NCBI GenBank assembly: GCA_016790165.1
Contig: JAEUPL010000008.1
Span: forward strand, 1-64,000
Direction: 5' to 3'
Source: Burkholderiales bacterium
GTDB taxonomy: Bacteria; Pseudomonadota; Gammaproteobacteria; Burkholderiales; Casimicrobiaceae
DNA length: 64,000 nt
Shown in pieces: positions 2,605 to 59,810 of this stretch. The position numbers and the translations under genes were made by a program. Numbering within the stretch: position 1 is the first letter of the stretch; each line of letters opens with the position of its first letter. Below the pieces are notes generated by a model. It was not told the origin of the DNA. It ran no database searches and worked only from the letters and a program-made list of their open reading frames with translations.

Positions 2605-2721
2605 ACAGCTTTTTGAGTCCAGCGGCTGCCCGGCGGTCGTTTGCTCTACATTTTGACAAGAGTCGACAATCATGTTTTTCTCCTTGCAACGACCGTCCGC
2701 TGGTCGGTTGATCGAAAAAGC
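2605..2721. repeat. 120-bp palindromic intergenic element, copy A
   Basis: Imperfect palindrome of 117 bp. The left end is ACAGCTTTTT and the right end GAAAAAGC; GTCGAC lies near the centre at 2662-2667. The arms share CCAGCGG and CGGTCGTT in inverted orientation. It lies between the DUF599 gene and the patatin gene and overlaps the first codons of the latter. It has the same architecture as the copies at 10026, 20660, 36789, 48961 and 59691. Confidence 0.75.
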
Positions 2722-4984
2722 CATATCGCACTGCGTGCGGACGGTGACAACGTGGTGCGTCCTCGCGGCAGGCGTCGCGCTTGCGCAGACGCCATCGGCG
2801 CCACCGATTGCGTCCGGCGACATCACGCGCGTTAACGCGGCACCCAGCGGAGCCCGACCGAAAATTGGCCTCGCGTTGTCGGGCGGCGGCGCACGCGGGC
2901 TTGCGCATGTGGGGGTGCTCAAGGAGCTTGAGGCCGCACGCATTCCGGTCGACTTTGTCGCGGGGACCAGCATGGGCGCCATCGTCGGCGGCCTGTACGC
3001 CAGCGGCATGTCTGCCGCCGAGCTCGAACGGCGTGTCCGGGCCATGAACTGGGCGCAGATGTTCGCCGACCGGCCGCCGCGCGATCAGCTCTCGTTACGG
3101 CGCAAGGCCGACGACCTTCGTCTCTCACTGCCGCTGGAATTTGGCATGCGCGACGGCGAACTGCGCGCGCCGCGCGCGGCCGTGGGCTCCAGTGCGCTGG
3201 AGACGACGCTGAAGGCGCTGACCGACGGGCTACCCAGCAACGCCGAGTTTGACCAGTTGCCGATTCCGTTTCGCGCCGTGGCCACCGATCTCGTCAACGG
3301 CGAGGCGGTGGTGTTCTCGCGCGGCGAGCTGGCCAGCGTGATGCGCGCGAGCATGAGTGTTCCCGCAGCGTTCGCGCCGGTCGAAATCGACGGCCGTCTG
3401 CTGGTCGACGGTGGCCTCGTCGACAACCTGCCGGTGGATGTAGTGCGTCGCATGGGCGCAGACATCGTCATCGCCGTCAACATCGGTTCCCCGTTGTTGC
3501 CGCGGGAAGAACTGGGCTCGATTCTCGGCATCGGCATGCAGATGCTCAACATCCTGACCGAGCAAAACGTGCGCGCATCCATCGCCTCGCTGAAGGCGGG
3601 TGACGTGCTGGTGGTGCCTGACCTGAGCAAGATTACCTCCGTCGATTTTGCGCTGTCGCACGACGCCATCGCACGGGGCAGCGAGGCTGCGCGCGGCGTG
3701 CTGCCGCTCTTGACCGACTACGCGCTCAGCGAGTCTGACTATCGTCGTCATCTGGTCGCGCAGCGCAACCACGTGCTGCCGTCGCGCATTGACGAGGTAC
3801 GTGTTGAGGGCAATCGCTACGCCAGCGCCGAGGCGGTGCGCGCCCAGCTTGCCCTCGAACCGGGCCACCCCTTTAGTCCACGCGACGTGGAGCGCGATCT
3901 CGCGTGGCTCGCCGGGCGCGGCGATTTTGAGCGGCTCGACTACCGCGTGGTCACCGAGCGTGATCGCAACGTGCTGCTGGTGCAGGTGCAGGAGAAGTCA
4001 TGGGGGCCGAACTACTTTCGCTTCGGTCTCAATCTCGGCACGGATTTTCGCGGGCTGGGCGAATTCAACTTTGTCGCCAACCACACGCGGCGCTGGCTCA
4101 ACAGTTTTGGGGCAGAGTGGCGCAACGAGTTGCAGATCGGTCGCACGCAACGACTTTCGACGGAGCTGTATCAGCCGCTAACGCGCGCCGAAACACTGTT
4201 TCTGAGTCTCGGCGCCGAAACGGAGCGTCGCGTCGCCGATGTGTCCGTGCGCTTGCCGGATGGCTCAGTGCCGCATCCGATTGCGCAGTTCTCCACGTTG
4301 AACAGCAAGGTTGCGCTCGATCTGGGCGCCGCGTTTGGCCGCTACGGCGAATTCCGGCTCGGTCCGGTCTACGAGCGCAACACGATTTCACCCCGCATCG
4401 GCGACCCGACGTTGGTGGGCGTGAAAAGCAACGACTCCGGGTTGCACGCGAGCGTGGTGTTTGATCAGCGCGACTCGGCGACGTTTGCGCGCAGCGGCTA
4501 CCGCATCGACGCCAGCCTGCTGCGATCACTCACCGCATTTGGCGCCACGCGCACCGCGTCACGCGTGCAATGGCTGTCGGAATACGCGCATACGTTCGGC
4601 GACAACACCATCGACGTCGCGCTCAAGTACGGCGGCCAGTTCGGTGCGGGTGAGGCGCCGTATCCATACTTTGAGCTCGGCGGTTTCTTGCAGTTGTCGG
4701 GGCTGCGGCCAGCCGAATTGCGCGGAGAGCAGGTCTACCTGGCCCGCGCGATGGGCTTTCGCAAGATCGGCAATCTGCCCGCGTTCGGGCGAGGCATCTA
4801 CCTCGGTGGCTCGTTCGAGGCCGGTCGCGTGGAATCGCCCAATACCGTGCTCGCACAAGCTCGCTCGGTGCTCGCCGGCAGCCTGTTCCTCGGCCTCGAT
4901 ACGGCACTCGGCCCGTTCTACATCGGCTACGGGCAGGCCAGCGGCGCCCGCCGCAGCGGGTATCTCTACCTTGGGCGGCCGTAG
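2672..4984 (+). CDS. PlpD-like patatin phospholipase with POTRA and outer-membrane barrel (type Vd autotransporter)
   Basis: A 770-residue protein. The order is signal peptide (hydrophobic core WCVLAAGVALA, likely cleavage after ALA-38), patatin lipase domain, one POTRA domain (about residues 370-440) and a C-terminal surface-antigen beta-barrel. Lipase signatures are the oxyanion loop GGGARG at 71-76, the nucleophile elbow GTSMG with Ser100, and DGG of the Ser-Asp dyad. This is the layout of Pseudomonas PlpD, in which the barrel exports the lipase (family knowledge). The barrel is expected in the outer membrane; whether the lipase is released is not known. The ATG at 2672 lies inside palindromic element A; a GTG near codon 22 would still leave a signal peptide, so the start is uncertain. 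Confidence 0.9.
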   Translation: MFFSLQRPSAGRLIEKAISHCVRTVTTWCVLAAGVALAQTPSAPPIASGDITRVNAAPSGARPKIGLALSGGGARGLAHVGVLKELEAARIPVDFVAGTSMGAIVGGLYASGMSAAELERRVRAMNWAQMFADRPPRDQLSLRRKADDLRLSLPLEFGMRDGELRAPRAAVGSSALETTLKALTDGLPSNAEFDQLPIPFRAVATDLVNGEAVVFSRGELASVMRASMSVPAAFAPVEIDGRLLVDGGLVDNLPVDVVRRMGADIVIAVNIGSPLLPREELGSILGIGMQMLNILTEQNVRASIASLKAGDVLVVPDLSKITSVDFALSHDAIARGSEAARGVLPLLTDYALSESDYRRHLVAQRNHVLPSRIDEVRVEGNRYASAEAVRAQLALEPGHPFSPRDVERDLAWLAGRGDFERLDYRVVTERDRNVLLVQVQEKSWGPNYFRFGLNLGTDFRGLGEFNFVANHTRRWLNSFGAEWRNELQIGRTQRLSTELYQPLTRAETLFLSLGAETERRVADVSVRLPDGSVPHPIAQFSTLNSKVALDLGAAFGRYGEFRLGPVYERNTISPRIGDPTLVGVKSNDSGLHASVVFDQRDSATFARSGYRIDASLLRSLTAFGATRTASRVQWLSEYAHTFGDNTIDVALKYGGQFGAGEAPYPYFELGGFLQLSGLRPAELRGEQVYLARAMGFRKIGNLPAFGRGIYLGGSFEAGRVESPNTVLAQARSVLAGSLFLGLDTALGPFYIGYGQASGARRSGYLYLGRP

Positions 4985-4993
4985 ACGGTAGCG

Positions 4994-6172
4994 CTACGAA
5001 GCGGGCAGCGAATCCGGATCCCGCGCCGGCAAAAAACTCACCGCCAGTAGCGTGAGTGAGGCAATCACGGCCATGGTGAAGAGCAGCGTGGTGAAGCCGC
5101 TGGCTTTGACGAACGGGCCGAGTGCCCAGACGGCGAGCGACGAGAAGCCGAAACTCACCGCGAGGCGCAGCCCGGCGACGCGCGAGCGCATGCTGTCGTC
5201 GACGAAGCGCGCGATGATGGCGTCGGTGAACGGAATCGCGCCGAAGACGAAGGTCATGTAGGCCACCGCGAAGGCATAGAACGCCCAGCCGTCGCTGCGC
5301 GCGGCGAGCAAGAAACTGAGCAACTGGGCCGCGACGATCGGCAGGAACACGCGCTTGATCGGGAAGCGGTCGATCAGGCGACCCACGATCACCTGTGCGA
5401 CGGACGCGATGGCGTAGATGCCCGCGAGCAACAGCCCAAGCATCGCCGGATCGCTGGCCGCACCGGCCACGCCAGACACGCGCTCGCGCAGCAGCTCGCC
5501 GTTGCCGTTGGTGGTGAAGTTGAAGATCAGGCTGCCCAGCGTCGTGGTGCAGGTCAGCACCGCAAACACGCGTACCGCTGTGGCGTGATCCACATGCAGC
5601 GCACGGCTGCCCTTGCGTGACGCCGGTGACGACGCTTCACGCGGCACCATGTACATGAACACGACGCCGAGCGCCAACGCAATCGCGCCCGGTACGGCGA
5701 ACGCGGCACGCCAGCCGAACTGCTTGACCAGGAAGCCCGTGAGCAGGGCGGCAAAGGCGATGCCGAGGTTGCCTGCCAGGCCGTTGATGCCAATCACCGC
5801 GCCCGCCTTTTGCGCGTGCTGCAACAGCATCGGGATCCCAACCGGGTGATAGATCGCCGAAAACGCGCCCATCAGCGTGAGCGCAATGCCAATCTGGAGC
5901 GGTGACTGGGTGGCCGCGACCAGCAAGAGCGAGCCACCCATGCCGAAGAAGAACACCAGCATCATCGCGCGTCGGCCCCACAAGTCGCCATAGCGGCCGG
6001 CGGGCAACGAGGCCACGCCGAACATGACGAACGCGCCGGTGGTGTAGGGCATCATGTCCTCCCAGCGCGCAAGCCCAAAGTCGGTAGCGATGGCGCTGAC
6101 GGCGGTGGCGAAGATCAACAACGCGAGGTGGTCAATGGCGTGCGCGAGGTAAAGCAGGAGTCGGGTGGTCAT
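4994..6172 (-). CDS. MFS transporter, Fsr-like
   Basis: A 392-residue major facilitator with about twelve hydrophobic segments. The loop GRYGDLWGRRAMM is the MFS cytoplasmic signature, and SAIYHPVGIPML resembles the YHP motif of fosmidomycin-resistance (Fsr) type exporters. The substrate cannot be read from the sequence. The start is MTTRLLLYLAHAIDHLA at 6172; upstream in-frame sequence is low-complexity and overlaps the preceding gene. The ATG overlaps the stop of the upstream membrane protein by 4 bp (ATGA), so the two are probably translationally coupled. Its stop is 10 bp from the end of the convergent patatin gene. Confidence 0.88.
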   Translation of the reverse strand: MTTRLLLYLAHAIDHLALLIFATAVSAIATDFGLARWEDMMPYTTGAFVMFGVASLPAGRYGDLWGRRAMMLVFFFGMGGSLLLVAATQSPLQIGIALTLMGAFSAIYHPVGIPMLLQHAQKAGAVIGINGLAGNLGIAFAALLTGFLVKQFGWRAAFAVPGAIALALGVVFMYMVPREASSPASRKGSRALHVDHATAVRVFAVLTCTTTLGSLIFNFTTNGNGELLRERVSGVAGAASDPAMLGLLLAGIYAIASVAQVIVGRLIDRFPIKRVFLPIVAAQLLSFLLAARSDGWAFYAFAVAYMTFVFGAIPFTDAIIARFVDDSMRSRVAGLRLAVSFGFSSLAVWALGPFVKASGFTTLLFTMAVIASLTLLAVSFLPARDPDSLPAS

Positions 6173-10010: not shown

Positions 10011-10025
10011 GCATGGGGCGTCATT

Positions 10026-10145
10026 ACAACTTTTTTGATGCAATGACGATTCTGCGGTCACTGGAGTGTGATTTTCTGGATAGTCGACTAACTGATTTTT
10101 TTCGCTCTAGCGACCGAGCGGCGGTCGTTAGACCTGAAAAGCTGT
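10026..10145. repeat. 120-bp palindromic intergenic element, copy B
   Basis: A 120-bp imperfect palindrome centred on GTCGAC at 10083-10088. The left end ACAACTTTTTT is a diverged version of ACAGCTTTT; the right end is GAAAAGCTGT. The right arm contains GCGGCGGTCGTT. It lies just after the PhoD-like gene and runs through the open frame at the 5' end of the LasA-like protease gene. Confidence 0.72.
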
Positions 10146-11644
10146 TGCAATGCAGTGCGATGTGTTGCGCCGTCGCACTCGGCGCGACCGTGTTGCTGGG
10201 CAGCAGCGTGGCCGCAGCGCAGGCGCCGCGCCAGGTGACCGATCGCGACATGGTGTGGGACACGCGCGTACTCAGCCTCGAATCCGCCTACGCCGCGCTC
10301 GATGCCGTTCCCGCGCTGCGCCCGTATCGCGCGCGCCTGATCGATCGCGCCGGGTTGCATAGCGTCAATCCGCAGGTCATCGCGCTAATCGTCGCAGAAG
10401 CGGCGCCCGGCGCGCTGGACGGCAAGGACACCGCAGCCGCCGAGCACTACCTCGACGCGCTCGTCGCGGCCGTCGCCGGCATGTACGATCTCGGACGCAG
10501 CATCGCGCGACTTGAGCGGCAGGACAGCGCGACGACGGCACCGGACGACGCCGGAATGGCCGCTGTCGCCGAAACCTTCTTTGTCGGCGAACAACGCACA
10601 CGCGGCTTCGCCTCGCGCTTCGCAGCGCGTTTCTCCGCACTCAATCACCCGGTCGCTGCAGAGCCATCGCAAAAGAGCGCGCCGCAAACCTCGCTGGCCG
10701 CGCCGGCGGATTTTTTGCGCCTGCCGTGGACGCTCGGCCAGACGGGCTGGAGTTTCAACGGCGTTCACACCACGACGGGTGGCTGCGGCACGGCGCCTTG
10801 TGCCTCGCCGCAATCCTTGATCGACTTCTCGCTTGGCTGGCCGGTGTGGGGCAGTGACACGTCGAAAGCGCGCGTGCTCGCCGCGCACGACGGTACTGTC
10901 ACCGTGTTTTCCAGTTGCAATATCCGCGTCACCCACAGCAATGGCTGGGCAACGAACTACTACCACCTCGACGCGCCGCTGGTGGCAACGGGCGCGGTGG
11001 TATACGTCGGGCAACCCATTGCGATCTACGCGAACAATTCGGCGCAAGCGTTGTGCCAGGGCGGATCGTCAACCGGGCCGCACGTGCATTTTTCGCTGCT
11101 CTACAACGGGGCGCATACCGCGCTCGACCAAAGCACGCTCAGCGGCTGGACGGTTAACGCCACGTTATCAAGCGGTGACTACGATTCGCTGTGCACTCAC
11201 ATGAACCTCTCCCGCGCTGGCATCACGGCGTGCGCCTACAACGGCGCCTCGCCCAGCGCGTGGGCCATGCACACACTGCCGTCCACCATGGCATCGAACA
11301 CGCGCTGCGCGCTCGACGTGGACGGCAATGGGGTGGTTGACGCGGCCACCGACGGTGTGCTTTTGCTGCGCTATCTGCTGGGCGCGCGCGGCAGCGCGCT
11401 GACCTCGGGTGCCCTGGGCGCCGGTGCGACTCGCAACACTGCGGGCGCCGTCGAGAGTTTTCTCGCGACCCGAAACTATGATCTCGACGTTGACGGCGTG
11501 ACGCTCGGCGGCGGCGATGGACTCATGGCGCTGCGTGTTTTGCGCGGTATCACCGGCAACGCGGTCGGTACTGGGGCGATCCGCGGCGGCGGCTTGTTGA
11601 TCAACGGAACGCAGGTTGCGGCGTACGTCGCGGGGTGTCGATGA
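10043..11644 (+). CDS. LasA-like M23 metallopeptidase with calcium-loop (dockerin-like) C-terminal repeats
   Basis: A secreted zinc endopeptidase similar to Pseudomonas staphylolysin LasA. Family features visible are NGVH and SLIDFSLGWP for two zinc ligands, WATNYYHLD, GGSSTGPHVHFSLLYNGA with the HxH motif, and the tail NYDxxC-like SGDYDSLC. LasA-type enzymes cleave glycine-containing peptide bonds, for example in cell-wall cross-bridges. The N terminus has a hydrophobic signal core (AVALGATVLLGSSVAAAQA) and a propeptide of about 190 residues. Downstream of the M23 domain are two Asp-rich loops, LDVDGNGVVDAATDG and LDVDGVTLGGGDG, like dockerin/EF-hand repeats. The start is uncertain: the frame is open from 10007, overlapping the phoD stop, but 10026-10145 is palindromic element B; ATGs at 10043 and 10160 are alternatives. 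Coupled to the next gene by ATGA. Confidence 0.88.
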   Translation: MTILRSLECDFLDSRLTDFFRSSDRAAVVRPEKLLQCSAMCCAVALGATVLLGSSVAAAQAPRQVTDRDMVWDTRVLSLESAYAALDAVPALRPYRARLIDRAGLHSVNPQVIALIVAEAAPGALDGKDTAAAEHYLDALVAAVAGMYDLGRSIARLERQDSATTAPDDAGMAAVAETFFVGEQRTRGFASRFAARFSALNHPVAAEPSQKSAPQTSLAAPADFLRLPWTLGQTGWSFNGVHTTTGGCGTAPCASPQSLIDFSLGWPVWGSDTSKARVLAAHDGTVTVFSSCNIRVTHSNGWATNYYHLDAPLVATGAVVYVGQPIAIYANNSAQALCQGGSSTGPHVHFSLLYNGAHTALDQSTLSGWTVNATLSSGDYDSLCTHMNLSRAGITACAYNGASPSAWAMHTLPSTMASNTRCALDVDGNGVVDAATDGVLLLRYLLGARGSALTSGALGAGATRNTAGAVESFLATRNYDLDVDGVTLGGGDGLMALRVLRGITGNAVGTGAIRGGGLLINGTQVAAYVAGCR

Positions 11645-12924: not shown

Positions 12925-12961
12925 CAACGCGCTGCGTGGCGGGTTGCGGGCGCCGTCGTCG

Positions 12962-13354: not shown

Positions 13355-13400
13355 GGCTTGTCTCCCAATACGTTGTTGTCGCCACGATGCTACGCGAAAC

Positions 13401-13690
13401 GACGAAGCGAAGCCGGACGCGCTAAAAGCCAATACTCCGGGCAAATTTGACGTCCGGCTGCGAGGAGCGCGGGGCGTCGCGCAGCGACGACAAGGCCGCA
13501 GGCCCGCCCCCGTGGCGACGAAGCGAAGCCGGACCCGCTAGAAGCCAATGCTCCGGGCAAATTTGACGTACGGCTGCGAGGAGCGCGGGGCGTCGCGCAG
13601 CGACGACAAGGCCGCAGGCCCGCCCCCGCGGCGACGAAGCGAAGCCGGACCCGCTAGAAGCCAATGCTCCGAGCAAATTTGACGTCCGGC
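13401..13690. repeat. 116-bp tandem repeat, 2.5 copies, overlapping the ATPase 3' end
   Basis: Units start GACGAAGCGAAGCCGGAC at 13401, 13517 and 13633. The first two are full length (116 bp) and the third is partial (58 bp). The partial unit contains the last codons and stop of the AAA ATPase gene, so the two full units carry extra copies of the terminal PDVKFARSIGF coding sequence plus 3' flank. The copies are nearly identical. Each unit also contains a GC-rich, hairpin-prone middle. Confidence 0.9.
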
Positions 13691-15978
13691 TTCACCTTAT
13701 GCTCCTGCTCCAGCTGCGCAAGGAATTCGTCGGGTGTCATCGTTTCGTCGAGCAGGGTAATCTGCCGCTTTACGGCCGCGAAGTCGCCGGGTGTCAGGAT
13801 CTGCAACTTGTTGAGGCGGTCGGCGAGTTTGCCGGTCAGATTTGCCACGTTGCCGTCGAGCGCTTCGGTGACGAACATCTTCTCGCGCTGCTCGCGGGTG
13901 AGCGGCTTGAATTGAATCTTGAACGTGAAGCGGCGCATCGCAGCTTCGTCGATGCGGTCGATGAGGTTGGTCGTGCAGATGAATACGCCCTTGAAGCGTT
14001 CCATCCCCTGCAGCATCTCGTTGACTTCGGTGACCTCGTAGCTGCGCTGCGCGAGGGCGCGGCTTTGCAGAAAACTGTCGGCCTCGTCGAGCAGCAGCAC
14101 GGCTTTTTCCTGCTCGGCCTCCTTGAACATCGCCGCCATGTTCTGCTCGGTCTCGCCGACGTACTTGCTCATCAGGTCGCTGGCCTTCTTGATGATCAGC
14201 GGACGTTCGATGGACTTGGCGATGTGTTCGCCCAGGGCCGTTTTTCCGGTGCCAGGCAGGCCAAAAAAGCACAGCGTGCCCGCGCCCTTGTTGCGCAGCG
14301 CGTTGATGATTTTTTCGACGGGATGGCGCGTCTCGATGTTGAGTAGTGAGAGGTCATACGTCGTCACCATCGGGCGATAAATCGACTTGTCGATCTCTTC
14401 CTTGTGGCCAAGCGCCTCGTCGCTGCGGTCGAGCTGCTTGAGCAGCAGCGCCTCGACGTCGTCTTCCACATGTTCGCGCGTGAGATCGACGAAGCGCGCT
14501 GCCGCGTGAATCTGGGCCGGCGTCAGCGTGCGCCGCGCAGCGAGCTTGTCGACAAATTCCGGGCTCAGATCAAGCCCGGCGAGGTGCTTTCGCGTGATGT
14601 TCGCTCGCACATTTTGCGGCGGATTTTTCAGTTCGATGTGGAACTGAAAGCGGCGCCGATACGCCGGATCAATCTGATTGATCGAATTGGAAATCCAGAT
14701 CGTCGGCACCGGATTGGATTCCAGCGTCTGGTTGACCCAGGCCTTGCCGTTCACGCTGCCCCGATGCGCCTCGTCGGCGAGGAACATGTTGAGCATTTCC
14801 GATGGATTGCTCGGGAACACGTCTTCCACTTCATCGAACAGAAGCACGGTGTTTTCGCGCCCCTTGAGGAACGACTGCGACACCTGCAGCGAGCGGTAGC
14901 GCTCCTTGCCCGACAGGCTCTGGCCTTCGCGGTCGAAGCATTCCACTTCGTAGAGCTCGGCGCCGGCCATGGCCGTGATGACTTTGGCGAACTCGGTTTT
15001 TCCCGTGCCCGGCGCGCCGTAGATGAGCACGTTCACGCCCTTTTCACGACGCGTCGCGGCACTCTTGAGCAGCGCGGCGAGGTAGCGGGCATCCGCTTCA
15101 ACATGCGGGTAATCGGTGACGGTCAGTTCCGTCGGCTTCGCCGGGCGCGTGAACGCAGCCATCATCGCGCCCTCGTTCTCGTAGCCGTCCAGAAGGATCG
15201 GCAACAAGCGATCAGACAGGCGCATCAGATCGCCCAGGTCGGTGATGTTGTGCTCGGCAATCGGCGTGTCGATGAGTGCAAGTGACTCCAGGCGGCCGCC
15301 GGGTTTGAGCGCGACGGCAATGTCGTTCGGCGACACCTTGGCCACTTCGCCCAGCATGGCGTGCGCTTCGGCAGCGCTTGATGCCTTGCAGTCCACGAGA
15401 ATCGGGCGCAGATCGCGCGAACACTTGGCCAGTGCGGCACACTCGATCAGCGTGCACTCGGCCGCAGTGAGCGAGAGCACCTTCGACAGCATGCCGATGT
15501 TCTGCGTCAAGCGCACCGGCGTCAGGCGGGCGTGCTTGTCGAGTGCGTCGGCGGTGGTCTGGAACAGCGCCAGCAGGTCCTTCGCGTTCTGTTTGCAGAA
15601 CTCGTCGAGATAGTAGAAGAGGGTCGTGTCGTCGTAGGTGCCATTCCACAGTCCGTGGCGGGCGATGAATTCCTCCGGGGAGAGTTTGCCCACGCCCGCC
15701 CAGGCTGGCATGTCGACGCAACGGTTGGCGAGAAAGCGCTGCACCTTTTGCGCCACCGACACCGGCCAGACCAGATGCCGTGCGCAGAGCGTCATGACGT
15801 CGTTGATGTCACGACGCAGGTTGAACTTGGGGCCGAGCGACAACACCAGGCGCAACGCCAGTAGCGCTGACAGTCGATCCACTGGCGTGGCCAGATGGGC
15901 TTGCGGTGCGGGAATGGCGAATGCACCCGCGTCGGCGCCGGGTTCGACAGGCATGTGGTCGGTCGTGAAAGCGGTCAT
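13654..15978 (-). CDS. Tandem AAA ATPase
   Basis: A 774-residue protein with an N-terminal region of about 290 residues of unknown fold and two AAA modules. The first module has Walker A GAPGTGKT at 321-328 and Walker B LLFDEVED at about 379-386. The second has Walker A GLPGTGKT at 573-580, Walker B LLLDEADS, sensor-1 CTTN and arginine-rich DEAAMRRFTF. Such double-AAA proteins remodel proteins or complexes; no substrate-specific domain is recognisable. The ATG at 15978 has a GGGGA ribosome site and is preferred to a TTG two codons earlier. The C-terminal PDVKFARSIGF and stop lie in the partial last unit of the 116-bp tandem repeat. The gene stands alone. Confidence 0.85.
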   Translation of the reverse strand: MTAFTTDHMPVEPGADAGAFAIPAPQAHLATPVDRLSALLALRLVLSLGPKFNLRRDINDVMTLCARHLVWPVSVAQKVQRFLANRCVDMPAWAGVGKLSPEEFIARHGLWNGTYDDTTLFYYLDEFCKQNAKDLLALFQTTADALDKHARLTPVRLTQNIGMLSKVLSLTAAECTLIECAALAKCSRDLRPILVDCKASSAAEAHAMLGEVAKVSPNDIAVALKPGGRLESLALIDTPIAEHNITDLGDLMRLSDRLLPILLDGYENEGAMMAAFTRPAKPTELTVTDYPHVEADARYLAALLKSAATRREKGVNVLIYGAPGTGKTEFAKVITAMAGAELYEVECFDREGQSLSGKERYRSLQVSQSFLKGRENTVLLFDEVEDVFPSNPSEMLNMFLADEAHRGSVNGKAWVNQTLESNPVPTIWISNSINQIDPAYRRRFQFHIELKNPPQNVRANITRKHLAGLDLSPEFVDKLAARRTLTPAQIHAAARFVDLTREHVEDDVEALLLKQLDRSDEALGHKEEIDKSIYRPMVTTYDLSLLNIETRHPVEKIINALRNKGAGTLCFFGLPGTGKTALGEHIAKSIERPLIIKKASDLMSKYVGETEQNMAAMFKEAEQEKAVLLLDEADSFLQSRALAQRSYEVTEVNEMLQGMERFKGVFICTTNLIDRIDEAAMRRFTFKIQFKPLTREQREKMFVTEALDGNVANLTGKLADRLNKLQILTPGDFAAVKRQITLLDETMTPDEFLAQLEQEHKVKPDVKFARSIGF

Positions 15979-20515: not shown

Positions 20516-20659
20516 GATCGTTCCTTGTTGCGATGCAACGATTTTACGTCAAGCAAATTAATTGCTCAGATATCGAATTAATCGAAGTTACTGGCAATAT
20601 TATTGTTGAGTAACAGGATACATATTAAATAAATTCCAACACTAGACGATTGCATTTCA
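20516..20659. other. AT-rich region upstream of aroG
   Basis: This 144-bp stretch is much richer in A and T than its surroundings (repeated AATTAAT and ATTATT runs) and contains no reading frame. It should hold the aroG promoter on the minus strand. It runs directly into palindromic element C. Confidence 0.5.
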
Positions 20660-20779
20660 TTGGCTAGTTGTCTTGAACGACCGTTTGGCGGTCGATTACG
20701 GCTCATTTTGCAAATAGTCGACATGACACATAGTTAGGCGCTAAGCACCATGCAGCGGTCGCTGGAATGAGAAAGCTGT
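20660..20779. repeat. 120-bp palindromic intergenic element, copy C
   Basis: Centred on GTCGAC at 20717-20722. The right end GAAAGCTGTA matches the family end. The left end (TGGCTAGTTG) is diverged, but the internal block AACGACCG...GGCGGTCG is present. It lies between the aroG promoter region and the small-RNA candidate. Confidence 0.65.
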
Positions 20780-20803
20780 AGAGATGGATCGTATCGCCGC
20801 AGC

Positions 20804-21219: not shown

Positions 21220-24171
21220 CTACGGCTGGACGTACAGACCGCTTAGTACCGCAGGCAGTTCGTTGCTGCGGCGACCAAAGTGGCGTGCCAGTGGGTCACG
21301 TGCGGCCAGCGCAATGCGCGAGTCAGCGCCGTGTAGCGCTGAGGCCTCTACGTACGCCAGCTGCGCGTACACGCGGTGGGACCGGGCAATGCCGGACGGA
21401 ATCGCGGCGCGCGCTTCGTCCAGCACAGCGCGCGCGCGTTGGCGCATCTCGTCGCCGCCGATGAGCGTCAGGGTGTACGCTTTGTCGAGCAGCGAGTAGG
21501 CGAAGCGCAACGAGGTGGTTTCCTTGGTCTTTGTATACGTTTGAAGTCGGCGTTCGACTTGCTCCAGCGATACGCCGTAGTCGCCCCGGTGGCGGGCAAT
21601 GGCTGCGGCCAGCGCGTCGCTGCGACCGTCGTTGGCGGGCGACTGGTCTTTGCCCAGCGCGCGCGCCGCAGCGTAGGCGCGCTCCGCGAAGGGTACATCC
21701 TCCAGGGTGATGGCAACGGTGCCGATGCGCAATAGCAGCTGCCGGAAGCGCGCCGATGTGGGAGCGATCGACACTTGCACGCGCGCTGCCATATCCTCCA
21801 ATTGCGTGCGGAGCACCTCGGCGCTCGCCAGGTTAAACCGGGCACCCACCTCGATCACATCGACGCGGCTGCGCAAAATGGACGACAGATCCGCATCGCC
21901 GCGACTTTCCAGCCTGGTCAGCAGACGCTGATAGGTCGCCAGCGCCTTGTCACCCGCGCCGGCTTGGGCATAGTAGAGACCCAGGTCATTGAGCAGTTCG
22001 TCAATCCGCTCCGTCTTCTCGCCCGCCAGCTGTTGCCACTGCCCGATCAATGCCAGGATCTTTTCCTCGACACCGCTTGGGTCGCCCAATATGTTTTGTA
22101 CGGTAATCAGGTTGCCCTGATGGTTGAGTGCACTCTTGATGTCATTTCGCGGTGGCGCCGCGTAGGTATCTGCGTGTTTGCGCAGAAGGTCGAGCGCGTC
22201 CTGCCAGCGGCCCGCCCGCGTGTAGGCCGCCGCAAGGTCACCATCAATATCGGCCACCCGCCAATCGCGATCCGGCAACGGCGGGCGCGCGTCCGAAACC
22301 TCGTCGAGCAGCTTCTTGAATTCTGCCTCCGCTTCGGCGTTGCGATAGGCGCCGGCGAGGATATTGGCGTAGCGCTGACGCGTATCCATGAGCTCGATCG
22401 AGCCGGCGGGCAGCAGCTTCGGAAGCGCCTGCATGACTGGCTGCATGCTGGTCACCGCCGCGGCGTAGTCGTCCGACCAGTATTGAATCCAGGCCAGCAG
22501 GCTTTGTGCACGCAGCGTCGGCAGTGCCCTGTCACCGTAGAGTTGCGTCGACAGTTCCAGCGCGCGTTTGGCCAGTGGCAGCGCGTCGGTGTCGCGCGAT
22601 AACGAACGGTAGATCGAGGCAAAGAGCCGCGTGAAGCGCTCCTCGGTCGCGGGATCGTCGCGGAAGCGCTGCCGGCTCTCGCCGGCGGCTTCGTCGAGCA
22701 GATCGGCTGCGGTGGGCCATTTGCCGCCGTGCAGATCAGGATCGGCCCGCCCGAGTAGTTCCACCAGGAATTCTGCCGTTTTGTTGGCGCGCGTTGCCTC
22801 GGCATTGACGCGTCCGTACTGCCACAACGAGACCGCGAGCCCGGCGCCGAGCGCAACGATCAGCGTGGCTGTCAGGCCGACCGGCAGCCAGTTGCGGCGT
22901 AGCCAGAGCCGGGTGCGGTAGCTTCGGTCCTCGCGGCGGGCGGCGATGGGACGGCGATCGCTCCAGCGGCGTAGGTCAGCCACAAACGCTTCCATCGTGG
23001 GGTAGCGATCGGCCGGGTCGATGCGCATGGCCCGTGCGATGATCGCATCAAGGTCGCCCGCGAGACGGTGTGCGTCGGTCGGCGGCGGAATCGTGTCCTT
23101 CACGGTGGCGGGGGGCGTATGCGTGGCGGCGTGCGACAGCCGTTCGGGAACCTGGTGCAGCACTGCGTATTCCAGCGCCGCGCGACCGGGTTTCTCGGGA
23201 AGATGCGCCCGGTGACCAGCCAGCAGGTGGTAGGCGAGGCTGCCCAGCGAGTAGATGTCGCTCGCCACCCCCGTTGCATCGCCAGTGATCTGCTCGGGGG
23301 CGGCATATTCCACCGTCAGGCCGCGCCCGCCGATTCGAGTGGCCTCGGATGACGTCGCCTCGTCGTGCTCGGCATCCTCCAGCAGGCCGGCGACGCCAAA
23401 GTCGAGCAGCTTCACGTGCCCGCCCGGGGTGACCAGCACGTTCGAGGGTTTGAGGTCGCGGTGCACCACCAGTTGCGTGTGCGCGTAAGAAACGGCTTCA
23501 CCAATTTCGCGCACGATATCGACCCGCGACTGCACGGTGGGCGCCAGCTCGGCCACGAAATTCAGGAGCGGTTTGCCGTCGACGTACTCCAGCACCAGAA
23601 ACGGCTGGCTGAACAGGCGGCCGGCATCCATCAGACGGGCGATCCCCGGGTGGTTCAAGCGCGCCAGCAGAGTACGCTCTTGCGCAAACCGCGCTTCGAA
23701 CCGCTCAATGTCACCGTCCGTTCGCAGGAACTTGACCGCGGCGCGCGCCTGGTAAAGGCCATCGGCGCGTGAGGCGAGCCAGACCTCGCCCATCCCTCCC
23801 ACGCCGATGACTTCCTGCAATTTCCAGGCACCGCACATCTCGCCAGCGTGGCGCGCGTTTTGTGCGCGCGATCGCTCGGCGCGCAGGGCGCGCCGCAGCA
23901 GCCCGTCAAAGCCGCGCTCGCCGCCATCGGGCAGAACCGGTATGAGCTCCGTGGTCAGCCCGCCGCTGCCGCGCCCCGCGCGCACGTAGTCGGTCACGAG
24001 CGTCTGCTGATGGGCGCGTCCGAGCAGCTTGCGTACTTCGTCGGCGAGGCGAGGATCGCGCGCGCGCAGCGATTGCACGAATGCCGGACGCGTTAGGTCG
24101 TCGCACTCGAGTGCTTCGTCGAGCGCTGCGTTGACGGCGCGCCAGAACGGCGCGTCAAAGCTCTCAGCCAC
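21220..24171 (-). CDS. Membrane Ser/Thr protein kinase with C-terminal TPR-like sensor region
   Basis: A 983-residue PknB-type kinase. The glycine loop GVGGMG is at 123-128, the ATP lysine is K147, the catalytic loop HRDLKPSN is at 237-244 and DFG at 257-259, so the kinase looks active. A single membrane helix spans about 428-450, and the remaining roughly 530 residues are a helical TPR-rich region outside the membrane. The N terminus (1-100) is a short helical region often found before such kinases. It lies 197 bp downstream of an ECF sigma factor on the same strand. That pairing is common and suggests a phosphorylation-controlled transcription module. No target is visible. Confidence 0.92.
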   Translation of the reverse strand: MAESFDAPFWRAVNAALDEALECDDLTRPAFVQSLRARDPRLADEVRKLLGRAHQQTLVTDYVRAGRGSGGLTTELIPVLPDGGERGFDGLLRRALRAERSRAQNARHAGEMCGAWKLQEVIGVGGMGEVWLASRADGLYQARAAVKFLRTDGDIERFEARFAQERTLLARLNHPGIARLMDAGRLFSQPFLVLEYVDGKPLLNFVAELAPTVQSRVDIVREIGEAVSYAHTQLVVHRDLKPSNVLVTPGGHVKLLDFGVAGLLEDAEHDEATSSEATRIGGRGLTVEYAAPEQITGDATGVASDIYSLGSLAYHLLAGHRAHLPEKPGRAALEYAVLHQVPERLSHAATHTPPATVKDTIPPPTDAHRLAGDLDAIIARAMRIDPADRYPTMEAFVADLRRWSDRRPIAARREDRSYRTRLWLRRNWLPVGLTATLIVALGAGLAVSLWQYGRVNAEATRANKTAEFLVELLGRADPDLHGGKWPTAADLLDEAAGESRQRFRDDPATEERFTRLFASIYRSLSRDTDALPLAKRALELSTQLYGDRALPTLRAQSLLAWIQYWSDDYAAAVTSMQPVMQALPKLLPAGSIELMDTRQRYANILAGAYRNAEAEAEFKKLLDEVSDARPPLPDRDWRVADIDGDLAAAYTRAGRWQDALDLLRKHADTYAAPPRNDIKSALNHQGNLITVQNILGDPSGVEEKILALIGQWQQLAGEKTERIDELLNDLGLYYAQAGAGDKALATYQRLLTRLESRGDADLSSILRSRVDVIEVGARFNLASAEVLRTQLEDMAARVQVSIAPTSARFRQLLLRIGTVAITLEDVPFAERAYAAARALGKDQSPANDGRSDALAAAIARHRGDYGVSLEQVERRLQTYTKTKETTSLRFAYSLLDKAYTLTLIGGDEMRQRARAVLDEARAAIPSGIARSHRVYAQLAYVEASALHGADSRIALAARDPLARHFGRRSNELPAVLSGLYVQP

Positions 24172-36783: not shown

Positions 36784-36788
36784 GCAAT

Positions 36789-36909
36789 ACAGCTTTGCGG
36801 CCTTATCGACAGCCAGACGGTCGTTTGGAAGACAAATTCCGAGAAGTCGACAACGTCAATAATTGGCCTGTGAGCACCATATAGCCGTCGTGTGCCATAA
36901 AAAGCTGTT
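36789..36909. repeat. 120-bp palindromic intergenic element, copy E
   Basis: A 121-bp element. Ends are ACAGCTTTG and AAAAAGCTGT, and GTCGAC is at 36846-36851 within 1 bp of the exact centre. An inner block GACGGTCGTT is paired with a CCGTCGTG-like block on the other arm. It fills almost the whole gap between the earP start and the tal stop. Confidence 0.78.
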
Positions 36910-48948: not shown

Positions 48949-48960
48949 TACGACGCGTTT

Positions 48961-49080
48961 ACAGCTTTTCAGCGCGATCGACGGATCCACCTGCCGTTTG
49001 TCGCAGTTTATCGGTAAGTCGACTTGACAAAAAAATTGGCTATAACGACCGCTGATTGGTCGATAGCGTCGAAAAGCTGT
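48961..49080. repeat. 120-bp palindromic intergenic element, copy F (best preserved)
   Basis: Ends ACAGCTTTTC and GAAAAGCTGT are perfect 10-bp inverted repeats at exactly 48961-48970 and 49071-49080. GTCGAC at 49018-49023 is the exact centre. The right arm contains ATAACGACCGCTGATTGG. It starts 12 bp after the Ldh-family stop. Its right end abuts the TTAG target duplication of an IS5-like MITE. Confidence 0.85.
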
Positions 49081-49084
49081 TTAG

Positions 49085-51348: not shown

Positions 51349-51371
51349 GAAGCGCCGAATGTTACTTCGGG

Positions 51372-54331: not shown

Positions 54332-54424
54332 ACGCCCTTTCCCCGCACTCGCCAAACCGTTCAGTGAACGACTGAAGTTTCGGTTTTAGCGCTTTGTCGC
54401 GTGCGGGGCGAGGGCCTTACAGTC

Positions 54425-54461: not shown

Positions 54462-55456
54462 ATCCTGAACGCTTCCAGCGATTCCGGTGCGAATAGCTCG
54501 TCAAGCGCGAGCGGGCGTTTCGATAAGCCCTGTTCGTAGTGGTAACGCGTAAACGTCTCCAGTGCCTTGCGGTTTCGTTCCAGACCGTAAGGCCACCAGT
54601 CGTCGCCCATCTCGTGGCGCGCTTCTTCGACATGGGCAACCAGCCAGGGCAGCATCGCCTTCAGCGCCGCCGTCTCGGCAAGATCCGCGTAGGCATTGCG
54701 CTGCGCGGCGTAGAACGCTTTGGTGAGCGATTGCGCAATCCAGCGGTTGGCCTCATAGACGTCTCGCCGCATGACGATGACGTGCATGATGGGGAAGATG
54801 CCCGTGTCGCGCCAGTAGGCGCGCTCTATCTCGGCGTAGTTCTCGAACAGGCGTCGCACGCGGCCGTCTCCGCGAGTGAACGACGACGGCGCGCGGGCCG
54901 TGTACAGCGCGTCGATTTCGCCGTCGGCGAGCATTTGCGACAGGGTTTGCGTGGGGCCGATGGGCTGAAGTTTGATGTGCGGCGGCAAGTCGAGCTTGAT
55001 CTTCTCAATGCGACCAGGCTCCTCTTCGCCCCCGAAGAAATACGAGTGACCGCCGTTGTCCACCGGGACGCCGTAGTGATCCTGCAGGATGCCGCGGATC
55101 CACACCGGCGCCGTCATCTGATACTCGGGGCTCGCGATGCGCCTGCCAATCAGGTCTTTCGGTTCTCGAATGCCCGCGTTGGCGTTGACGTAGATGCACG
55201 AGTGCCGGAAGAAGCGCGAGGGATAAACCGGGAGCGCAACGAACGGACGATCCGGTTTGTGTAGCGAGACACAGTACGACGAGAACGACATCTCGGCGAC
55301 GTCAAACTCGCGATGTCGCGCCATGCGGAAGAACGTCTCCTCAACGGGCAGGCACAGGTAGTTGAGGTCGATGCCATCGGCCTGCACCGAACCGTCGAGC
55401 AGGGCGCGCGTGCGGTCGTAGTTCCAGCAAGCGAAGGAGAGGCGTAGTCTTGACAT
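54458..55456 (-). CDS. pht5: 4,5-dihydroxyphthalate decarboxylase-type protein
   Basis: A 332-residue protein starting MSRLRLSFACWNYDRTRALLDG, typical of Pht5/OphC-like decarboxylases. They have a periplasmic-binding-protein-like fold and convert 4,5-dihydroxyphthalate to protocatechuate. Blocks LPPHIKLQPIGPTQTLSQMLADGEIDALYTARAP and DTGIFPIMHVIVMRRDVY support the family. The upstream 86 codons of the open frame overlap the oxygenase gene and are rejected. It lies 25 bp after the dioxygenase stop in the same operon. It ends at a CTAG bounding an insertion-element relic. Confidence 0.88.
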   Translation of the reverse strand: MSRLRLSFACWNYDRTRALLDGSVQADGIDLNYLCLPVEETFFRMARHREFDVAEMSFSSYCVSLHKPDRPFVALPVYPSRFFRHSCIYVNANAGIREPKDLIGRRIASPEYQMTAPVWIRGILQDHYGVPVDNGGHSYFFGGEEEPGRIEKIKLDLPPHIKLQPIGPTQTLSQMLADGEIDALYTARAPSSFTRGDGRVRRLFENYAEIERAYWRDTGIFPIMHVIVMRRDVYEANRWIAQSLTKAFYAAQRNAYADLAETAALKAMLPWLVAHVEEARHEMGDDWWPYGLERNRKALETFTRYHYEQGLSKRPLALDELFAPESLEAFRI

Positions 55457-55481
55457 GCGAAGTATTCTTCCCGTGAACCAC

Positions 55482-56804: not shown

Positions 56805-56816
56805 GGCGTGCCTCCA

Positions 56817-56858
56817 TTGAGACTTGATTTGCGTCAACAGTATACTTAGTTGGCTAAG
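56817..56858. promoter_or_regulatory. Divergent phthalate promoter with MarR-type operator
   Basis: For the plus strand TTGAGA (56817-56822) and TATACT (56841-56846) have an 18-bp spacer. An inverted repeat CTTAG-TTGG-CTAAG (56845-56858) overlaps the -10 and start site, where a repressor would block both operons. The MarR gene at the end of the plus operon is the natural candidate ligand sensor. Confidence 0.6.
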
Positions 56859-56884
56859 AAAATTTTCCATGAAGGCGCCAAACA

Positions 56885-57883
56885 GTGCAACTGACCGACG
56901 GGCGTGTGCCAACAACCTCCGATGGTTCGCTGGCGCTATGGTTTGACCTCCGCGTTGTCGGAAAGGCGCGAATCGCCTCCGAGGTGTGGCAATTTGAACT
57001 GGCGGGCGAGGCCGGCGTGCCCCTACCCGCCTTCGCTGCTGGGGCGCATGTCACGGTCATCACACCCCTTGGCCAGCGCCGCAACTACTCGCTCTGCGGT
57101 GCGCCACAGGATCGAAGCCGCTATGTGCTCGCTATCAAACGCGAAGCGCGTGGCCGCGGTGGTTCCGTGTGCCTGGTCGATGATGTGGCCGTCGGTACGA
57201 CGCTGCGCGTGAGCGAGCCACGCAATCACTTCGCCCTGAGTCCGCGCGCGCGTTCATTTATCTTCATCGCCGGCGGCATCGGCATTACGCCGATCTACGC
57301 CATGATGCAGCAGTTGCGCGCCTCCGGAAACGAGGATTTCAGTCTCGTCTACTGCTCACGCGATCGGGCCAGCGCGGCGTTTGCCGACCAACTCGAGGCG
57401 GAGTTCGGCGGCAAGGTGCATCTACACCATGATGGCGGGCACCCGGCGCAGGCGTACGACTTCTGGCCGCTGCTCGAACGGCCGACGGCGGCACACGTTT
57501 ATTGCTGCGGGCCCACCGCCCTGATGGAGTGCGTCGCGGACATGTCTGGCCACTGGCCAACCGGCGCGGTGCATTTCGAGCGCTTCGGGGTCAGCTACGC
57601 CGCGCGCGCGGCGGATGAGCCTTTTGTCGCGCGCTTGAGGCAGACCGACGTCTCGGTGCAAGTCGGTGCTCAGGAAAGCCTGCTTGATGCACTGCGCCGC
57701 GCCGGTGTCGCCATACGAAGTTCCTGCGAGAGTGGCGTCTGTGGTGCCTGCAAGACCCGGCTGATTGCTGGCGACGTGGCGCATCGGGATCAAGTGCTGT
57801 CGGACGCGGAGCGGGCACAGCACATCATGGTCTGCGTGTCGCGTGCCTCAGGCGCGGGGTGCGAACTGGTGCTCGATCTATGA
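56885..57883 (+). CDS. pht2: Phthalate dioxygenase reductase-type protein
   Basis: A 332-residue electron-transfer protein: FMN/FAD-binding RNYSLCGAPQDRSRY, NAD-binding FIFIAGGIGITPIYAMMQQL and CCGPTALMECV, then a plant-type ferredoxin domain with SCESGVCGACKTRLIAG and a distal Cys in IMVCVSRA. This order (flavin, NAD, 2Fe-2S at C terminus) is that of phthalate dioxygenase reductase, which feeds the oxygenase on the opposite strand. The start is GTG at 56885. The stop overlaps the next ATG (ATGA). Confidence 0.9.
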   Translation: MQLTDGRVPTTSDGSLALWFDLRVVGKARIASEVWQFELAGEAGVPLPAFAAGAHVTVITPLGQRRNYSLCGAPQDRSRYVLAIKREARGRGGSVCLVDDVAVGTTLRVSEPRNHFALSPRARSFIFIAGGIGITPIYAMMQQLRASGNEDFSLVYCSRDRASAAFADQLEAEFGGKVHLHHDGGHPAQAYDFWPLLERPTAAHVYCCGPTALMECVADMSGHWPTGAVHFERFGVSYAARAADEPFVARLRQTDVSVQVGAQESLLDALRRAGVAIRSSCESGVCGACKTRLIAGDVAHRDQVLSDAERAQHIMVCVSRASGAGCELVLDL

Positions 57884-59115
57884 AAAGGGAACGCGCTGCA
57901 TCCTCTGACGAGCCGCTGCGCATGGGGGTGATCGGACTTGGCCGTGCGTTCACGTTGATGCTGCCAACGTTTCAGCGCGATCCACGCGTCCGGCTGGTCG
58001 CGGCGTGTGATTTGAGCGACGCGGCACGTAAGCAGTTTGTTGCCGACTTCGGCGCTGCAGCCTATCCCGATGCAGCGGCGCTGTGCGCCGATCCGTCGGT
58101 GGAGCTGGTCTACGTGGCCTCGCCGCATCAGTGCCATGCAGCGCATGTGGCGCTGGCCGCCGCGAACGGCAAACACGTGCTGCTCGAAAAGCCAATGGCG
58201 GTCACACTCGACGAGTGCGATGCGATGATCTCGGCGATGCGCGCCGCCGGATGTGCGCTGATCGTCGGACACAGCCACAGTTTCGACGCACCGGTGTTGC
58301 GTGCGCGTGAACTCATTGACAGCGATGAGATCGGCGACGTGCGCATGATCCAGGCCTTCAACTACACCGATTTTTTGTACCGGCCGCGACGCCCCGAGGA
58401 GCTCGACACCGCGCAGGGCGGGGGCGTGGTGCACAGTCAGGCCGCACACCAGGTGGATGTGGTGCGCCTGCTGGGGGGCGGCTTGCTCGCGAGCGTGCGT
58501 GCCATCGCCGGGCGGTGGGACGCGGCCCGTCCGACGGAGGGTGCTTACAGCGCACTGTTGAGCTTTCAGGGCGGCGCCTTTGCCAGCCTGAGCTACAGCG
58601 GCTACGGTCACTTCGACAGCGACGTATGGATGGATGGGCGCGGCGAACTGGGCCAAACCAAGTCTGCGGATGACTACGGTGTCGCGCGCCGGCGGCTGCG
58701 GGCGCTCGCGCATCGCGACGATGAGGCCGCGGCGAAGGCGGCGCGAAACTACGGCGGACCTGCATGGTCTCCGGCGGGTGTGGAAACGGCAGCCGATGCC
58801 GAAAGCGCCTCGCGCCCCTCGCACCAGCATTTCGGCCCGGTGATCATCAGCGGCGAGCGCGGCGCGCTGCGGCTCACGCCGCACGGCGTCTGGCGCTATG
58901 GCGCGCAGCGTTGTGAGTTCGAGGCGATTGCTGTGCCGCCCGTCCCGCGCCGCGAAGTCATCGATGAGCTCTGGCAGGTGCTGCGCAGTGGCGGTGTGCC
59001 GCAGCACGACGGCGCATGGGCGCGCGCAACGACCGAGGCGTGCCTGGCGATCCTCGAATCGTCACGCACGGGCGTGGACGTAGCTTTGCGGCAGCAGGTG
59101 GCGTGGCGGCGATAA
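57880..59115 (+). CDS. pht4: Gfo/Idh/MocA-family phthalate cis-4,5-dihydrodiol dehydrogenase
   Basis: A 411-residue NAD(P)-dependent dehydrogenase: MGVIGLGRAFTLMLPTFQRDP for the nucleotide fold, HVLLEKPMAVTLDECDAMI with the Gfo catalytic EKP, and LDTAQGGGVVHSQAAHQVDV. Pht4 belongs to this family and converts phthalate 4,5-dihydrodiol to 4,5-dihydroxyphthalate, so the operon context supports the function. Other Gfo/Idh activities cannot be excluded from sequence alone. It overlaps the reductase by ATGA. Confidence 0.87.
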   Translation: MKRERAASSDEPLRMGVIGLGRAFTLMLPTFQRDPRVRLVAACDLSDAARKQFVADFGAAAYPDAAALCADPSVELVYVASPHQCHAAHVALAAANGKHVLLEKPMAVTLDECDAMISAMRAAGCALIVGHSHSFDAPVLRARELIDSDEIGDVRMIQAFNYTDFLYRPRRPEELDTAQGGGVVHSQAAHQVDVVRLLGGGLLASVRAIAGRWDAARPTEGAYSALLSFQGGAFASLSYSGYGHFDSDVWMDGRGELGQTKSADDYGVARRRLRALAHRDDEAAAKAARNYGGPAWSPAGVETAADAESASRPSHQHFGPVIISGERGALRLTPHGVWRYGAQRCEFEAIAVPPVPRREVIDELWQVLRSGGVPQHDGAWARATTEACLAILESSRTGVDVALRQQVAWRR

Positions 59116-59123
59116 TCGTCGCA

Positions 59124-59684
59124 ATGGCTACGCACGACCAAACGCTCACTACTGTGGCATCCCGATCAAGGCAGCGGGCGTCCGCGCCCGGCAGGCTGAC
59201 GCCGGATCGGCATTCGATTCTGCGGCACTGGCTCGAGGCCGTACCGGATGATCGCTTCGCACATCTCGTGAAGGACGCGACACGCTCGTTCCAGCGCGCC
59301 TTGCAGTCGCGGTTGTCCCAGCACGATGTGCCGTTCGGACACTGGACGTTTCTGCGCGTGCTTTGGGAGCGGGACGGATTGACGCAAAAGCAGTTGTCGG
59401 ACGAGGTGGGCGTGATGGAGCCCACGACGCTGATGGCGGTACGCGCCATGGAGGCGCGCGGTTGGGTGGAGCGGCGGCAGCGCGCCGAGAACCGCAAAAA
59501 CGTGCACGTTTATCTCACCGACGCGGGGCGCGCACTCAAGGATGTCCTCGTGCCACTGGCAGAGGACGTCAATCGTGTGGGGGCCAGCGGCATTTCCGCT
59601 GACGATGTCGCCACGGCCCGCCGCGTGCTGCTCGCCATGATCACCAACCTGGCCGAGGACAGCGCGAGCACGCCTTCGGGTTGA
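59124..59684 (+). CDS. MarR-family regulator of the phthalate cluster
   Basis: A 186-residue winged-helix protein with QKQLSDEVGVMEPTTLMAVRAMEARGWVERRQRAENRKNVHVYLTDAG as the DNA-binding core and an N-terminal extension of about 45 residues. It is the third gene of the plus operon, 8 bp after pht4, so it could autoregulate through the inverted repeat at 56845. Other phthalate clusters use LysR or IclR regulators, which makes a MarR regulator of interest. The start is ATG at 59124. Confidence 0.87.
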   Translation: MATHDQTLTTVASRSRQRASAPGRLTPDRHSILRHWLEAVPDDRFAHLVKDATRSFQRALQSRLSQHDVPFGHWTFLRVLWERDGLTQKQLSDEVGVMEPTTLMAVRAMEARGWVERRQRAENRKNVHVYLTDAGRALKDVLVPLAEDVNRVGASGISADDVATARRVLLAMITNLAEDSASTPSG

Positions 59685-59690
59685 CGACCA

Positions 59691-59810
59691 ACAGCTTTTC
59701 GTACCCAACGACCGCTGCTGGATGATCACAGCGCGAATTTGTGAAAAGTCGACTTCGAACGAATTCGCGCGCTGAGGTCCACATCGACGTGCACTGGCGC
59801 GAAAAGCTGA
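59691..59810. repeat. 120-bp palindromic intergenic element, copy G
   Basis: Ends ACAGCTTTTC and GAAAAGCTGA. GTCGAC at 59748-59753 is the exact centre. The left arm contains CAACGACCGCTGCTGG; the inner arms contain GCGCGAATTTG and CGAATTCGCGC. It begins 6 bp after the marR stop and lies 43 bp before the tRNA-like attachment site of the integrated element. Confidence 0.82.

Follow-up and report, generated by a model that had tools for sequence, protein, structure and literature searches.

The 64,000-nucleotide stretch analysed here (the window; contig JAEUPL010000008.1 of a Burkholderiales bacterium of the Casimicrobiaceae) contains six copies of a 122-bp DNA element in which short motifs are arranged with two-fold symmetry and at rigidly fixed distances. 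These copies belong to a family of elements that is dispersed through the genome of this bacterium (G000, 3.76 Mb), is limited to one genus (environmental betaproteobacteria) within the taxonomic family searched, recurs at orthologous places in related species and differs from species to species in the sequence of its arms (dialects). The explanation we favour, with slightly less than even confidence and from sequence comparison, is that selection maintains each element as a docking site for a protein assembly with two-fold symmetry, which would probably organise the chromosome.

Architecture of the element

The element is a symmetric array of five dyads, one at each end (AGCT), one in each arm and one at the centre. 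Its ends read CAGCTTTT, its arms A.CGACC...GGTCG.T and its centre GTCGAC; the consensus of one arm in G000 is aACaGCTTTTt.gc...A.CGAC.g.c...cGGtcgtT...g.c..atttt.....aaGTCGAC, after which the mirror image follows. A refined profile built on 464 kb of G000 (the window, positions 1-280000 of contig C15 and positions 120001-240000 of contig C18) recovers 40 copies with scores of 56-116, or 39-112 under leave-one-out scoring; the highest control scores are -39 in simulated sequence and -13.5 when the reversed profile is run on real sequence. The motifs carry about 98 bits of information in G000, a figure without sample-size correction. In G000, all but one of the 80 arms and all but one of the 80 ends keep the exact offset (79 each); a change in length is almost never tolerated. 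Peaks of A/T-rich sequence recur every ~10 bp, with the strongest period at 9.5 bp. Half elements outside full ones are scarce: 10 exceed the random maximum in G000 (scores -4 to 13), 3 do so in G005 and 6 in G010, one of the latter scoring 30.

The spacers between the motifs are unrelated from copy to copy. Identity in these variable columns lies at about the level of chance in G000 (mean 0.320, maximum 0.552), in G005 (mean 0.325, maximum 0.543) and in G010 (mean 0.311, maximum 0.500), with no outstanding pair in any of the three. The end sequences also vary among copies and are not near-invariant. Because the spacers are unrelated, the family escaped a general repeat search of the window (seed 11, minimum length 60). 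Within a copy, the left and right arms are no more alike than permuted pairs (0.334 against 0.320, sd 0.013, in G000, and similarly in G005 and G010), and compensatory change between the two arms, for which the initial annotation of the window had suggested a test, is not borne out.

Copies in the window

The six copies obtain leave-one-out scores of 72-104 bits, compared with a maximum of -39 in simulated sequence. No strand (.) is assigned to any of them, and they are located as follows.

Element 1, 2604-2725, strand., core 2607-2722, centre GTCGAC 2662-2667, in the gap between a DUF599 gene (1895-2584, + strand) and a patatin/Omp85 gene
Element 2, 10025-10146, strand., core 10028-10143, centre 10083-10088, separating a PhoD-like phosphatase gene from an M23 peptidase gene
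Element 3, 20659-20780, strand., core 20662-20777, centre 20717-20722, in the gap that separates a Ser/Thr kinase-TPR gene from a DAHP synthase gene, with a degenerate left end motif
Element 4, 36788-36909, strand., core 36791-36906, centre 36846-36851, between a transaldolase gene and earP, whose start is 4 bp away
Element 5, 48960-49081, strand., core 48963-49078, centre 49018-49023, flanked by an Ldh_2 and a DUF3047 gene in convergent orientation
Element 6, 59690-59811, strand., core 59693-59808, centre 59748-59753, flanked by two predicted genes that converge; the weakest copy (leave-one-out score 72)

The initial annotation had placed six palindromes of about 120 bp at these positions, and the copies are real, with offsets of only a few bases. 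It had seen GTCGAC at the centre of most of them, which is true of all six; centred on this sequence, the copies form a gap-free alignment. The term palindrome holds for the motifs, which are symmetric, and does not extend to the whole, as only 41-62% of bases match the mirror complement when centred on the core and the copies are not long self-complementary sequences. Their reported intergenic position is upheld by a simple gene finder, with the reservation that Element 1 may contain the start codon of the patatin gene: the longest open reading frame (ORF) of this gene starts at 2672 (ATG), within the right half of the element, and in several relatives the ORF, judged by eye, runs through the right end of the element into the patatin gene. 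Element 2 occupies its whole gap, leaving 13-14 bp per side.

Elsewhere in the window, at 13400-13747, three tandem copies of a GC-rich unit (the others 96% and 65% like the first) lack the element motifs, although the unit length of 116 nt equals that of the element core.

Distribution among genomes

When up to 3 mismatches are allowed, 210 places across G000 fit the pattern AGCTTT-N49-GTCGAC-N49-AAAGCT and none fits its reversed control, which disposes of the possibility, raised in the initial annotation, that the genome holds only the six copies of the window. Twenty stretches of 20 other G000 contigs (331,754 bp) contain 21 matches scoring above 0, of which 16 are strong (64-105) and 5 weak (39, 23, 19, 1 and 1). 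Decayed copies thus exist, as these weak matches and degraded ones in G020 indicate. The total in G000 is probably about 210-240, and the region of the window appears to be denser than the G000 average.

A profile of five dialects (76 copies) was searched against 64 genomes of the taxonomic family, under stricter filters, by which weak matches are lost. Up to 56 candidates were scored per genome, and 15 of the 17 genus members saturate this number with at least 55-56 matches each. G020 has 26 matches, which are 13 sites found on both strands, 2 of them half matches, and G014 has none by this search. Both the PheS tree and the GyrA tree show these two as sister species; their genomes are smaller (2.5-2.6 Mb) and have no match to Y1_Tnp, the transposase domain considered below. 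In the 47 genomes of six other genera this search found no element. Only G051 gave matches (two, weak; E 0.0085), and these are rejected because they are located in another repeat array, a short contig (L166, C288 55-157) of tandem GGGGTCAGACTCGAATTAATT units. The element is therefore limited to one genus within the taxonomic family searched.

An exact-type pattern (2 mismatches) finds 0 to 229 places per genus genome, a count that reflects dialect as well as copy number. In a named collection, an exact 20-base pattern found 60 stretches, all in five records of metagenome-assembled genomes (MAGs; JAPUER, JAGNQL, JAKPSO, JANXNO and JANXUB) titled Betaproteobacteria, Burkholderiales or Pseudomonadota. 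A looser 12-base pattern, scanned across the order, matches 25 of 399 genomes and gives more than one match only in G000 (77), G005 (26), G010 (6) and G006 (4), while its reversed control also matches many genomes, up to 3 times each. A plasmid collection queried with one window gene gave no match. The sole exact match in an IMG/VR pattern scan (L271, GC 0.34) is dismissed as chance, since its arms do not fit.

Copies at the same loci in relatives

Places of the element are partly conserved between species, with turnover. The gyrA locus was chosen to test gyrase (one nearby copy in G011 being already known) and the pheS locus for its G020 copy; the remaining loci are those of window elements. 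An element lies upstream of the patatin gene (the place of Element 1) in 7 of the 9 relatives where this gene was found, before the M23 gene (Element 2) in 3 of 5, and before earP (Element 4) in 5 of the 13 examined, with weaker candidates farther upstream in G007, G008 and G010. Past the best kinase-TPR match (Element 3), a clear copy is present in 9 of 15 relatives examined, and one of the remaining cases ends at the contig end; this protein family has paralogues, a caveat to both the locus comparison and the kinase tree. The window protein itself (21220-24171) belongs to a large Ser/Thr kinase-TPR family in the genus, with 1 to 13 matches per genome in 16 genomes.

Past the gyrA stop codon, an element occurs in 11 of 16 genus genomes (the G008 copy is weak, score 22); none is found there in G014, G020, G009 and G019, and G012 has only a weak, distant match. 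The gap between pheS and pheT contains an element in 7 of 12 genus genomes (the G020 copy is half decayed). The five gaps that lack it contain other sequence, in four cases another repeat. In the pheS-pheT gaps of G000, G005 and G006 (L197, L194 and L198), a different inverted repeat, GACGAATGACCAATGACGAATGAC ... GTCATTCGTC, stands at the element's place.

Among 107 reciprocal-best gene pairs from the sampled stretches, with 202 gene ends, an element is present in both species at 12 ends, in one at 32 and in neither at 158, where 3.9 shared ends are expected; pairs from several species are not independent in this count. All 30 comparisons made at a shared locus show greater likeness in motif columns than in spacer columns, a contrast that is partly biased in that the copies were found by motif. 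In sister pairs (G015-G017, G005-G018, G011-G016 and G012-G019) motif identity is 0.67-0.83 and spacer identity 0.40-0.71; the likeness of the spacers in most of these pairs indicates descent at the locus.

Arm dialects

The arms are written differently in different species. A CGAC/GTCG form is used by G000, G012 and G019, and a GCCC/GGGC form by G005, G018, G015, G017, G011, G016 and G013. Related GCC..GGC forms occur in G006, G008, G009, G010 and G007, and G020 has ACGCCC..GGGGCGT. Counts of half-motifs separate the best-sampled species, with 72 CGAC/GTCG and 1 GCCC/GGGC in 80 arms of G000 against 6 and 52 in 54 arms of G005. For most of ten further species the assignment rests on 1-8 copies; that of G013 comes from one sampled copy and the pheST copy, and that of G019, a MAG with 7% contamination, as can affect MAGs, from profile scores, its exact half-motif count being 1 to 1. 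Dialects also differ between species at single places, namely the gyrA, patatin and M23 loci.

In the GyrA tree, the CGAC group requires at least two changes, and 0% of 200 bootstrap trees accommodate one change. The dialect history rests on this single-gene tree. The PheS tree does not include G012 and G019, and the kinase-TPR tree disagrees with that of GyrA, placing G012 with G011 and G019 with G016, so that CGAC appears in three places.

Gene context and spacing

Copies in G000 overlap predicted genes by at most 29 bp according to the simple gene finder, and several fill an entire intergenic gap. In G005, 28 copies are intergenic and one overlaps its neighbours by more than 40 bp (48). The neighbours of 39 of 40 G000 copies are both known; they are arranged in tandem in 21 cases, convergently in 11 and divergently in 7.

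Spacing is regular along parts of two genomes. On C15 of G000, 24 intervals have a mean of 11.4 kb and a coefficient of variation (CV) of 0.42, where random placement between genes gives 0.88 (0 of 5000 as low). In positions 1-400 kb of G005 without its island, 26 intervals have a mean of 10.1 kb and a CV of 0.41, against 0.90 (0 of 5000 as low). C15 and C18 were chosen from the hit list, whereas this part of G005 was not. With its hole included, G005 loses this regularity (CV 1.36). A general rule of regular spacing is rejected, as it holds only in the examined parts of G000 and G005.

The hole in G005 is a 105-kb region free of elements. It contains conjugation genes (of 10 proteins tested, 3 gave matches, to TraC, TraG_N and TraG-D_C) alongside genes for a topoisomerase, a helicase and a methylase, and because of the conjugation genes it is probably acquired DNA. 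The loci concerned (L130-L135, C1 ~112-214 kb) probably form an integrative conjugative island, and no element was found inside it.

Alternative explanations

An old mobile family could account for the dispersal. Elements resembling miniature inverted-repeat transposable elements (MITEs) or REPINs would have been spread in the genus ancestor by a putative transposase, with the dialects as successive waves and the copies persisting by drift or weak secondary use. The element indeed sits in gaps that are short in other genera (pheS-pheT measures 7-12 bp in three of four outgroup genomes), its positions turn over between species, and Y1_Tnp genes are present in 15 of the 17 genus genomes, the two exceptions being G014 and G020, the very genomes with few elements or none. 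Yet the variable columns are at chance identity in G000, G005 and G010, which excludes recent copying there, while the ~98 bits of motif are kept in G000; unselected insertions would lose motif and spacer alike. Half elements are nearly absent from G000 and G005, and no target duplication is seen by eye at the flanks of the six window copies. Fifteen of 44 Y1_Tnp matches, from 11 of the 15 genomes, were examined over ~1.5 kb per side where the contig allowed: none of these loci is flanked by the element, the closest case being one locus with a copy at a distance of 1.2 kb. Other short inverted repeats lie alongside at 5 of the 7 loci that were searched. Since no examined locus has the element at its flanks, Y1_Tnp is rejected as the mobiliser, although its pattern of presence fits. 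At L272, L274, L277, L278 and L279, the Y1_Tnp (RAYT-like) genes are adjoined by short inverted repeats that differ between species. The element family may have an ancient mobile origin, but an old mobile family as the explanation of the elements is judged unlikely.

Transcription offers another reading, in which the copies are bidirectional terminators or insulators, or else operators of a very large regulon. They do lie between genes, one may contain a gene's start codon, and in some copies a terminator-like hairpin with a T run is visible by eye in an arm (L226 near 9917; the gyrA 3' ends of G006 and G010). At these places (the gyrA ends being in L241 and L239) the hairpin seems to be built into the arm, and one stretch may serve both. 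However, gaps of all three kinds (tandem, convergent and divergent) contain copies, as does the one that separates pheS from pheT, which probably form an operon; the consensus arms have no adjacent T run, and a rigid 122-bp array of five dyads is unnecessary for an operator. We regard a transcription-level device as improbable.

Strong loading sites for DNA gyrase or another topoisomerase, at which DNA would wrap symmetrically and be cut at the central TCGA to set supercoiling per domain, are to be doubted a little more. The Escherichia coli gyrase motif is symmetric and ~130 bp long; cleavage at its centre has a stagger of 4 bp, and GC content in its flanks varies with a period of 10.75 bp (PMC6379681). 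The element resembles it in its 122 bp, its 4-bp TCGA core dyad and its A/T tracts every ~10 bp. The gyrase motif is degenerate, however, whereas the dyads of the element are sharply specific, and the strongest period of the element (9.5 bp) departs from the 10.75 bp of the gyrase motif (PMC6379681). Full-length GyrA of genus members has an ordinary length of 859-890 aa, and G021, of another genus, has gyrA and no elements. GyrA also changes little between G000, G005 and G018 (branches of 0.007-0.03) while their dialects differ, and on this ground GyrA is rejected as the reader of the dialects.

Least probable is that each copy gives rise to a transcript that acts as a structured RNA or as a signal for RNA processing. 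The arms are inverted repeats capable of pairing, and Watson-Crick pairing of arm halves at the register of the arm itself in G010 (0.504) slightly exceeds that of shuffled halves (0.456; 3 of 2000 as high), a set that mixes strong and weak copies, where mixture alone makes the halves correlate; the arms may have a hairpin role in this species. Pairing is at chance in G000 (0.519 against 0.504 shuffled, 212 of 2000 as high) and in G005 (0.405 against 0.388, 263 of 2000 as high). Nor are the arms of one copy more alike than those of different copies in the three genomes, and the window has no Rfam match. Two-fold symmetry and occurrence in all gene orientations, including convergent 3' ends, fit DNA better than RNA. 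Among the three roles left open in the initial annotation, DNA binding is thus the best supported, by the rigid symmetric geometry, helical phasing and conservation of position; RNA processing is poorly supported, and recent MITE-like movement is not supported.

A proposed role in chromosome organisation

We favour docking sites of a symmetric protein assembly, in which a protein presumably reads the element. Sequence-specific subunits would recognise the AGCT of each end, the inverted repeat of each arm and, at the centre, the TCGA dyad. The intervening DNA, with its A/T tracts every ~10 bp, would bend or wrap on the complex. About two hundred such sites in gaps between genes could then act as anchors of loops or supercoil domains that divide or fold the chromosome. 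The dialects would follow changes in the putative reader protein. Chromosome architecture as the job of the sites is the weakest step of this best explanation.

Several observations weigh against docking sites that organise the chromosome. No candidate for the reader protein turned up, and no whole-proteome comparison was made. The window alone offers only 5 intervals (CV 0.25, 73 of 5000 as low), regularity on C18 alone is borderline (8 intervals, 235 of 5000), and spacing is irregular in G010 (CV 0.72) and G007 (CV 0.84). Density is uneven, with 40 copies in 464 kb, from contigs that are partly hit-list picks, against 21 matches, 16 of them strong, in 332 kb elsewhere. Positions turn over, 32 of the 202 gene ends having the element in one species only; the contrast of motif and spacer carries the search bias mentioned above; and the excess of arm pairing in G010 is not predicted by independent half-sites. 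G020 lives with only ~13 sites and G014 with none, from which it follows that the system is dispensable.

A more specific version of the proposal, which we hold to be doubtful as a whole, is a chromosome-organising system of the genus's own, with some two hundred 122-bp anchors of five dyads and at least two in-place lineage shifts between the GGGC and CGAC dialects, tracking a reader that changed in specificity or was replaced. Binding motifs in use across hundreds of places are regarded as difficult to change, because a shift in the reader demands a matching shift at every site. If the dialect shift does track a reader, hundreds of binding sites would have been rewritten by evolution in step with one protein. 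The 17 related genomes, with one kind of site in several dialects, partly at the same locus, make the rewriting of a genome-wide code directly testable. If the elements are loop or supercoil-domain anchors, they represent a new sequence-encoded way of organising a bacterial chromosome, for which one species with ~13 sites and one with none provide natural controls.

Comparison with known systems

Literature searches, which cover open-access PMC text, turned up no description of such an element. To our knowledge, no site family has this length, five-dyad symmetry and change of dialect at the same places, and defining features of REPINs and MITEs that were tested are absent.

Bacterial MITEs such as Correia/NEMIS, RUP and BOX resemble the element in being ~100-150 bp long, intergenic and present in many copies with terminal inverted repeats. 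Copies of those families are alike over their whole length, whereas the spacers of the element are unrelated between copies. BIMEs and REPINs are likewise high-copy and intergenic, with two inverted units around a spacer and a species-specific sequence. REPINs end in invariant 16-mers, and their hairpins commonly show compensatory changes (PMC3116915). The element, in contrast, has ends that are not invariant and arms that do not compensate each other between left and right, and other repeats are found at the Y1_Tnp loci examined. The gyrase motif and strong gyrase sites share with it a symmetric extent of ~120-130 bp, a 4-bp central dyad and helically phased A/T and G/C; unlike them, the element has specific dyads, is found in one genus and varies in dialect while GyrA is nearly constant.

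The proposed role resembles that of chromosome-organising sites such as matS, SBS, NBS and parS, which are dispersed palindromic sites with a single reader protein. Those sites are short (~13-20 bp) and mostly regional, whereas the element is 122 bp long, has five dyads and occurs in all parts of the genomes examined except an island.

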